Shown piece after piece: positions 44,153-44,764 of a DNA stretch of 64,000 bases. Every line of letters begins with the position of its first letter. Position 1 is the first letter of the stretch. The translations under genes were made by a program, and so were the position numbers. The DNA is from Tenacibaculum sp. 190524A02b (GTDB lineage Bacteria; Bacteroidota; Bacteroidia; Flavobacteriales; Flavobacteriaceae), in assembly GCF_964036645.1 (NCBI RefSeq), contig NZ_OZ038525.1, forward strand, positions 1,039,501-1,103,500, given 5' to 3'. The notes beneath the pieces are model-generated. The model was not told the origin of the DNA. It searched no databases and saw only the letters and a program-made list of their open reading frames with translations.

Positions 44153-44189
44153 AAAAACAGACTAAGGGTTAACCCTTAGTCTGTTTTTA
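44153..44189 (+). terminator. Intrinsic terminator after guaB
   Basis: A 36-bp near-perfect palindrome, arms AAAAACAGACTAAGGGTT and AACCCTTAGTCTGTTTTT. A diverged copy of its core (ACTAAGGG/CCCTTAGT) recurs at 44516-44536, inside the duplicated unit. Confidence 0.85.
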
Positions 44190-44324
44190 TGTAAATGTAT
44201 AAAAAAATAAAAAGTTACATTTTGGCGTTGTAGTAATTATACCTATAAGCCCTTAGTTTTTTTTCAGGGGTATTGGGTATCTAAAAATATACGTTTTTTA
44301 ACATAATATATTCCTAAACTATTA

Positions 44325-44332
44325 TACATTTG
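44325..44332 (+). promoter_or_regulatory. Candidate promoter of small RNA copy 1
   Basis: TACATTTG (TAnnTTTG) lies 7 nt upstream of the first hairpin and is matched by TATATTTG in copy 2. No -33 TTG is evident, but the upstream tract TTTTTTAACATAA is shared by both copies. Confidence 0.55.
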
Positions 44333-44335
44333 TAA

Positions 44336-44412
44336 CAGATTTAGGAGACGTCCTAAATTCTTTTCTTTTTCATAGCAATTTTCCCGCTCAATTTTTTGAG
44401 TGGGTTTTTTTT
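44336..44412 (+). ncRNA. Putative small RNA, copy 1
   Basis: A predicted transcript of about 75 nt. Hairpin A has arms ATTTAGGA (44339-44346) and TCCTAAAT (44351-44358) with a GACG loop. A single-stranded linker TTCTTTTCTTTTTCAT spans 44358-44373. Terminator hairpin B has arms CCCGCTCAA (44383-44391) and TTGAGTGGG (44396-44404), followed by eight T. There is no open reading frame of note. I do not recognise an Rfam family. The linker is complementary to the common flavobacterial gene start ATGAAAAAG, which suggests base pairing with start codons of MKK-type secreted-protein mRNAs; this is inference. Confidence 0.6.
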
Positions 44413-44677
44413 ATATCTAAAGTTTACAAAAGCAACATATATTTTAGTTAATTAGAAGGGTTTTCCGCTGAAGCTATTAATAAATTTCCAAATAAATTAT
44501 AGTTAAATATTTTAAACTAAGGGATAACCCTTAGTCTTTAATGTGTTTATTGTTTGATTATTAGTTTTTTAAAAAACCATATATTCTTTTGAGTACGCAA
44601 AAACCCTAAGTATTGATTAAGGGGTTTTAGGTATATAAAAACATGTTTTTTTAACATAAAATACTTCTAAACTATTA

Positions 44678-44685
44678 TATATTTG
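44678..44685 (+). promoter_or_regulatory. Candidate promoter of small RNA copy 2
   Basis: TATATTTG, the exact positional counterpart of TACATTTG in copy 1. Confidence 0.55.
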
Positions 44686-44688
44686 TAA

Positions 44689-44764
44689 CAGATTTAGGAG
44701 ACGTCCTAGATTCTTTTCTTTTTCATAGCAATTTTCCCGCTCAATTTTTTGAGTGGGTTTTTTT
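44689..44764 (+). ncRNA. Putative small RNA, copy 2
   Basis: Same structure as copy 1. Hairpin A has arms ATTTAGGA (44692-44699) and TCCTAGAT (44704-44711), where the single change keeps pairing as G-U. Hairpin B has arms CCCGCTCAA (44736-44744) and TTGAGTGGG (44749-44757), followed by seven T. It ends 76 nt before the aroQ start codon, so it is a separate terminated transcript rather than an aroQ leader. Confidence 0.6.

Follow-up and report, generated by a model that had tools for sequence, protein, structure and literature searches.

Results

The window, a 64,000-nt stretch of the genome of Tenacibaculum sp. 190524A02b, contains guaB (IMPDH) and aroQ (type II dehydroquinase), both assigned with Pfam, and between them a tandem duplication with a unit of ~354 nt (44161..44764, + strand). 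A repeat search found a direct repeat of 118 nt (44294-44411 and 44647-44764; 96% identity) with an offset of 353 nt, and a palindrome pair (44161-44182 and 44516-44537) with an offset of 355 nt, in agreement with the spacing of 353-355 nt given in an earlier note on this DNA. The first palindrome lies within a perfect 18-bp palindrome with A/T runs on its flanks (44153..44188, no strand assigned; -23.6 kcal/mol), probably the terminator of guaB, as we infer; 44516-44537 is a shortened copy of it and part of the duplicated unit. In the relative G002 guaB and aroQ are adjacent, without the unit and without TTTTTCATAG, and are separated by ~120 nt, versus 715 nt here; 1.5-kb pieces upstream of aroQ from three other relatives gave no guaB match and no TTTTTCATAG. 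With these four relatives compared by sequence and others by listed positions, guaB-aroQ looks like a derived position for the pair.

Each repeat holds a putative sRNA gene on the + strand, consisting of a 5' hairpin, a single-stranded core and a terminator. Copy 1 (44337..44411) is matched by R1, a covariance model of 38 sequences, with 82.3 bits (E 3.9e-13), and copy 2 (44690..44764) with 80.6 bits (E 8.4e-13). Each 79-nt unit is predicted to form a hairpin of 9 bp, with GACG as its loop, and a 9-bp terminator hairpin (z -5.1 for copy 1 and -4.9 for copy 2), and 0/200 shuffles folded as well. The 5' hairpins, supported by folding and, for copy 1, covariation, lie at 44338..44359 and 44691..44712, and the intrinsic terminators at 44383..44412 and 44736..44764; the latter correspond to helix 3 of an alignment of homologues (A3, below), in which 98.4% of cells are paired. 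Between them is the near-invariant core, CTTTTTCATAGCAATTTTCCC in copy 1 (44365..44385; proposed seed TTTTTCATAG, 44366-44375), found in copy 2 at 44718..44738 (proposed seed, 44719-44728). The TAnnTTTG (-7) box, the pyrimidine-rich linker and the intrinsic terminator described earlier are present in each copy, the boxes being TACATTTG (44325..44332) and TATATTTG (44678..44685), and the one change reported within the unit, A to G in the 3' arm of the hairpin of copy 2, indeed keeps pairing (A-U to G-U). The loop of the hairpin had also been read correctly as GACG; its length had been given as 8 bp, whereas the predicted hairpin has 9 bp.

The two repeats are almost certainly, judging from sequence, members of a large multicopy sRNA gene family that extends across many flavobacteria. 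Fifteen places in the same genome, arranged as three tandem pairs and nine single copies, match copy 1 at E 0.0018 or better (the next match has E 0.15), and a sixteenth, degenerate place was found with a second model, R2, of 108 sequences (E 3.9e-5). The pair described earlier as a tandem duplication is real, but it is no stand-alone duplication; the earlier note had missed the dispersed family, dnaJ as its commonest neighbour, the apparently derived position of the guaB-aroQ pair, and the fact that it is the single-stranded core, and not the hairpin sequence, that is constant. An upstream element, AGGG-TTT-AGGTATA together with TTTTAACAT, is common to four of the 15 aligned own-genome copies, the two in the window (~44264-44324 and ~44617-44677) and both members of a second tandem pair, on L039; it is possibly a common activator site. 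Beside that second pair lies an ORF (L039:2004-2432, - strand) that by eye we take to resemble an IS3-type OrfA; it has no Pfam domain at E 1e-8.

All 35 genomes of the same genus have a match at E 5.9e-8 or better, and the best match among 23 genomes from other families of the order has E 0.0039. The exact 21-nt core occurs in at least 118 stretches of GTDB species genomes; among the 80 matches listed, most belong to Tenacibaculum, Polaribacter, Lutibacter, Flavicella, Aureibaculum, Lutimonas and unnamed Flavobacteriaceae. R1 matched 251/299 sampled genomes of Flavobacteriaceae at E 0.001, mostly once each, and at E 0.01 it matched 11/395 genomes of the class, namely ten Flavobacteriaceae and one genome (G405) with a weak match to a sequence that lacks the core. 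At E 0.001 R2 matched 34/296 genomes of the order; 31 of these are in Flavobacteriaceae and three, matched weakly, outside it (E 9.9e-6 to 9.9e-4), and in one large genus of Flavobacteriaceae 41/81 genomes matched at E 0.01, some weakly. Since stricter filters lose weak matches, the genome counts from the large samples are lower bounds, and since the copies are related by descent none of the counts represents independent events. In Tenacibaculum sp. MAR_2009_124 (L128) four exact core matches lie ~2 kb apart; these copies have a common ACTTAAGAGACGTCTTAAGT hairpin and none of the three promoter types described below. An origin from phages or plasmids was rejected, since searches of 50,697 phage and 72,556 plasmid records gave nothing at E 0.001.

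Alignments of homologues support the 5' hairpin. In alignment A2 changes on both sides of a pair occur at 7/10 pairs of the hairpin, and the structure as a whole reaches a covariation score of 0.358, compared with 0.098 for shuffled alignments and at most 0.156 for slid versions of the structure; RNAalifold predicted both hairpins independently from the same alignment. In alignment A3 (108 sequences, 100 distinct), which was fitted to the model and so leans towards the structure, both sides change at 10/10 pairs of the hairpin, and over the whole structure 583 cells are changed on both sides, versus 180 after shuffling and no more than 155 for slid versions. The sequence of the stem is free and its pairing is kept. 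Together with the TAnnTTTG boxes described below, these homologues strongly support the earlier proposal of a structured RNA kept by selection.

The reverse holds for the single-stranded core, CUUUUUCAUAGCAA, which is near-invariant across the family. Fourteen consecutive model positions, CTTTTTCATAGCAA, are identical in 34/34 rows of the family-wide search, rows that were found by R1 and include second copies of some genomes as well as genomes of the window's own genus. As the sequences of R1 and R2 were fetched by similarity, this constancy is partly a selection effect. The seed is predicted to be unpaired, with a mean P(unpaired) of 0.89 over 221 copies (8 of the 229 copies of the promoter analysis were dropped). 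A hairpin of -3 kcal/mol or lower lies within 14 nt of the core in 168/172 copies; this loose rule was dropped as evidence because shuffled upstream stretches pass it often (467/860), and the energies, with a mean of -9.6 versus -3.9 kcal/mol for shuffled stretches, were used instead, together with covariation. The 172 copies may include a few chance matches. Three exact core words without hairpin or terminator (L114, L143 and L156) were judged to be chance occurrences. In one ECF-type copy of the window's own genome (L048, 672675-672751, - strand) the seed word occurs twice in tandem, TTTTTCATAGTTTTTCATAG, with an unrelated hairpin.

The nearest upstream ORF on the same strand belongs to the DnaJ cluster in 100/216 distinct copies, a set that is no random sample of genomes and may include L114, L143 and L156; a motif rule assigned a dnaJ neighbour to 95 copies. 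The DnaJ locus of the window's own genome, confirmed by Pfam, has a tandem sRNA pair, directly downstream of which lies RNase P RNA (L040:3054-3363). Copies that are not behind dnaJ are preceded by varied genes, and in 27/110 of them the upstream neighbour is on the opposite strand, which argues for autonomous units.

To describe the promoters we used 229 copies, leaving out L114, L143, L156 and copies with <110 nt of upstream sequence. TAnnTTTG ends 15-50 nt before the core in 174/229 of them (shuffled mean 12, maximum 21). Eight of the other 55 copies have an ECF-type motif, G(T/C)AAG-N15/16-CG(T/A)CT(T/A) (shuffled mean 0.005), rising to 10 copies with a relaxed rule (shuffled mean 0.17) and including the own-genome copy at 672674. 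Three have a sigma-54-type motif, TTGGCA-N8-GC (shuffled mean 0.03), which corresponds to the sigma-54 consensus GG-N10-GC; the ECF pattern likewise follows the known layout of such promoters. Both patterns were written after viewing the sequences and the shuffles keep base composition only; moreover, the ECF-type copies include groups that share a neighbour (L104/L151/L244 behind msrA; L107/L108/L153), and two of the three sigma-54-type copies share a hairpin. None of the three rules fits 42-44 of the 229 copies. The motifs suggest that one RNA body stands behind sigma-A-like, ECF-like and sigma-54-like promoters, the sigma factor being inferred for each. The sigma factors of Flavobacterium psychrophilum include one sigma-54 and seven of ECF type, and its SM6 promoters, one of which precedes the sRNA Rfp11, are of ECF type with a CGT box in the -10 region, according to the available excerpt of PMC9723704.

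The earlier note had not recognized a named family, and Rfam agrees: at gathering score the only match in the whole window is a DUF805b RNA (RF02914; 35214-35251, - strand), none falls at the sRNA locus, and the best sub-threshold match there is trpB, with 24.4 bits versus a cutoff of 59. The closest described counterpart is FopS, a paralogous sRNA family of Bacteroides with 14 members in B. thetaiotaomicron, whose RNAs bind near the susC mRNA start codon and repress translation (PMC11697453, available excerpt). The present RNAs resemble FopS in being multicopy siblings (here at 15 places) with housekeeping promoters (here TAnnTTTG in 174/229 copies) and a terminator, and UUUUUCAUAG occurs both in their core and in the extended-seed query given for FopS in the excerpt of PMC11697453. 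They are, however, no members of it. FopS RNAs consist of a single-stranded 5' part followed by the terminator, whereas here a covarying 5' hairpin comes first; the sequence after UUUUUCAUAG differs; only TTTTTCATAG is common to the FopS seed (GTGTTTTTCATAGTATTAGATTTAAGG...) and the flavobacterial core; and some promoters here are of ECF or sigma-54 type. The FopS model RF04319 matched 0/36 genomes at E 0.001, the window's own included, and at gathering score it had no match in L040, L025, L220 and L104 and matched L377, L378 and L382. The 24-nt FopS seed with at most 2 mismatches is absent from the window's own genome and present in 9/295 genomes, none in Flavobacteriaceae. An RRM_1 domain of the RbpB type was not matched in the own genome, while a control Bacteroides genome was positive. 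Membership of FopS was ruled out on these grounds of model, seed, architecture and RRM_1. FopS-like seeds in G577 and G460, from other families of the class, have TTTTTCATGG in place of TTTTTCATAG and keep the CAT part.

Other known sRNAs were compared by description. Rfp11, Rfp13, Rfp15 and Rfp18 of F. psychrophilum are likewise structured sRNAs whose conservation extends beyond the species; Rfp11 is given with an SM6 promoter, with its ECF-type CGT box, and Rfp18 differs in having a third stem-loop, described as pairing with target mRNAs, compared with two hairpins here (PMC9723704, excerpt). Our literature search found no description of the present sRNA family, though one of the Rfp RNAs may belong to it. 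MicA and RybB are envelope-stress sRNAs that depend on Hfq, whereas no Hfq was found in the 36 genomes searched here. By description, MicA/RybB and LhrC/Qrr resemble the present RNAs in copy number or proposed role, being envelope-stress or multicopy sRNAs that act on mRNAs; LhrC and Qrr are sibling sRNAs (PMC11697453, excerpt).

The core contains UUUUUCAU, which is antisense to AUGAAAAA. In the window's own genome ATGAAAAA (AUGAAAAA as mRNA) is the commonest octamer of start regions, present at 79 of 574 gene starts (longest-ATG calls made in this analysis). It ranks first also in 4/4 carrier relatives sampled and, once tied, in 3/4 genomes in which no copy was found; the preference is thus not confined to carriers. 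Together, the 8-mers of the core occur in 98/574 start regions, versus a mean of 31 for dinucleotide shuffles, 13/300 of which reached 98. Signal-like N-termini, called by a simple home-made hydrophobicity rule, are found for 82% of 77 genes starting with ATGAAAAA versus 24% of 497 others.

Tests by duplex energy, extended pairing and codon avoidance did not support such targets, and the overall case for them is mixed and indirect. Strong duplexes of the core (-10 kcal/mol or lower) are predicted for 33 genes, no excess over the average of 32.6 among 30 dinucleotide-shuffled cores. The core pairs slightly more strongly with gene interiors than with starts (-6.42 versus -6.23), and the lean towards starts is slightly above that of shuffles (difference 0.19 for the real core versus 0.64, sd 0.45). 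A ranking of targets by duplex energy was rejected for the lack of excess in strong duplexes over shuffled cores and because its 30 best-pairing genes are 23% signal-like, below the average of 32%. Targets of an extended core were rejected as well, since of 79 near-perfect sites in the own genome 15 are the sRNA copies, leaving 64, compared with 62 sites of the reversed pattern. A CT preceding ATGAAAAA would lengthen the duplex, but across five carrier genomes it shows no enrichment (5/165 versus 49/1020 other starts). At codon 3 after ATGAAA the own genome has 57 AAA to 1 AAG; an avoidance of ATGAAAAAG at gene starts did not replicate in five carrier genomes (110:10 versus 165:24 after other second codons, p = 0.27) and was dropped.

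Discussion

What the DNA itself shows is a family with a defined structure and a near-invariant core, promoter-like motifs before its members, and copies dispersed over the genome. On balance we think it somewhat probable, arguing from sequence and from the analogy with FopS, that these RNAs act as FopS-like sibling sRNAs that block the start codons of envelope-protein mRNAs. The repeats would then be autonomous genes for sRNAs of ~75 nt, presumably transcribed, within a multicopy family of sibling sRNAs in Flavobacteriaceae. What would matter in the 5' hairpin is pairing alone, and the hairpin probably serves to protect the RNA or to present it; the active part would be the exposed core, UUUUUCAUAGCAA. 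This core may pair with translation starts that read AUGAAAAA, which encode the MKK/MKN beginnings typical of exported proteins, and such pairing would prevent initiation in much the same way as FopS in Bacteroides, making the presumed direction of regulation repression. One copy is widely retained behind dnaJ, and in the clade of the window copies have arisen behind further promoters (housekeeping, ECF-type and sigma-54-type), so that different signals, putatively including stress, could release the same repressor.

A less probable but still plausible explanation is that the core is the site of an RNA-binding protein, titrated or recruited by the many copies, with mRNA pairing secondary. The core exceeds a minimal seed in both length and constancy, multiple copies would suit an effect of dosage, and the pairing tests are mostly without support. 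Any such partner would be a different protein, since the 36 genomes searched gave no Hfq and the window's own genome no RRM_1. A pure protein site, however, would have no need of an exact complement to the commonest start-region octamer, and the word from the FopS seed query in the core would be superfluous.

It is rather unlikely that the RNA pairs with a few specific targets instead of the broad class of AUGAAAAA starts, its match to AUG being partly coincidental. Such a restricted action would fit the energy ranking, which shows no broad preference over the 574 start regions, and the words taken from the GCAATT segment of the core, which are rare or near background at starts. Against it, the density of ATGAAAAA and TATGAAAA in start regions is 13 and 12 times that in gene interiors, partly by construction as each start region contains ATG. 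That the repeats are only a dispersed 3'-UTR or terminator module, or a small mobile repeat, with no regulatory function in trans is very improbable: the aligned copies do have a terminator, 100/216 follow dnaJ on the same strand and one own-genome pair lies beside the ORF that is transposase-like by eye, but the copies have their own promoter boxes and a covarying hairpin, 27/110 of those not behind dnaJ have their upstream neighbour on the opposite strand, and that ORF has no Pfam domain at E 1e-8.

With start-codon blocking by sibling sRNAs as the preferred reading, the finding brings to light a conserved sRNA family, present in multiple copies, in a large group of bacteria (Flavobacteriaceae) on which our literature search found one sRNA transcriptome study (PMC9723704). 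Translation in the group of F. psychrophilum does not rely on Shine-Dalgarno sequences, according to the available excerpt of that study, and antisense to AUGAAAAA offers a precise rule for how an sRNA may act where no Hfq was found and initiation does not rely on Shine-Dalgarno sequences. More speculatively, and as a possibility to which we hold only tentatively, Bacteroidota without Hfq and without Shine-Dalgarno initiation may use sibling sRNAs throughout the phylum, controlling translation by antisense of the AUG-Lys-Lys start (UUUUUCAU); FopS would be one branch, and Flavobacteriaceae, the other, would wire one effector to housekeeping, ECF and sigma-54 promoters and so shut down envelope-protein synthesis as a class. 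If true, one RNA body behind three promoter types would mean that the same genes are repressed under different signals.
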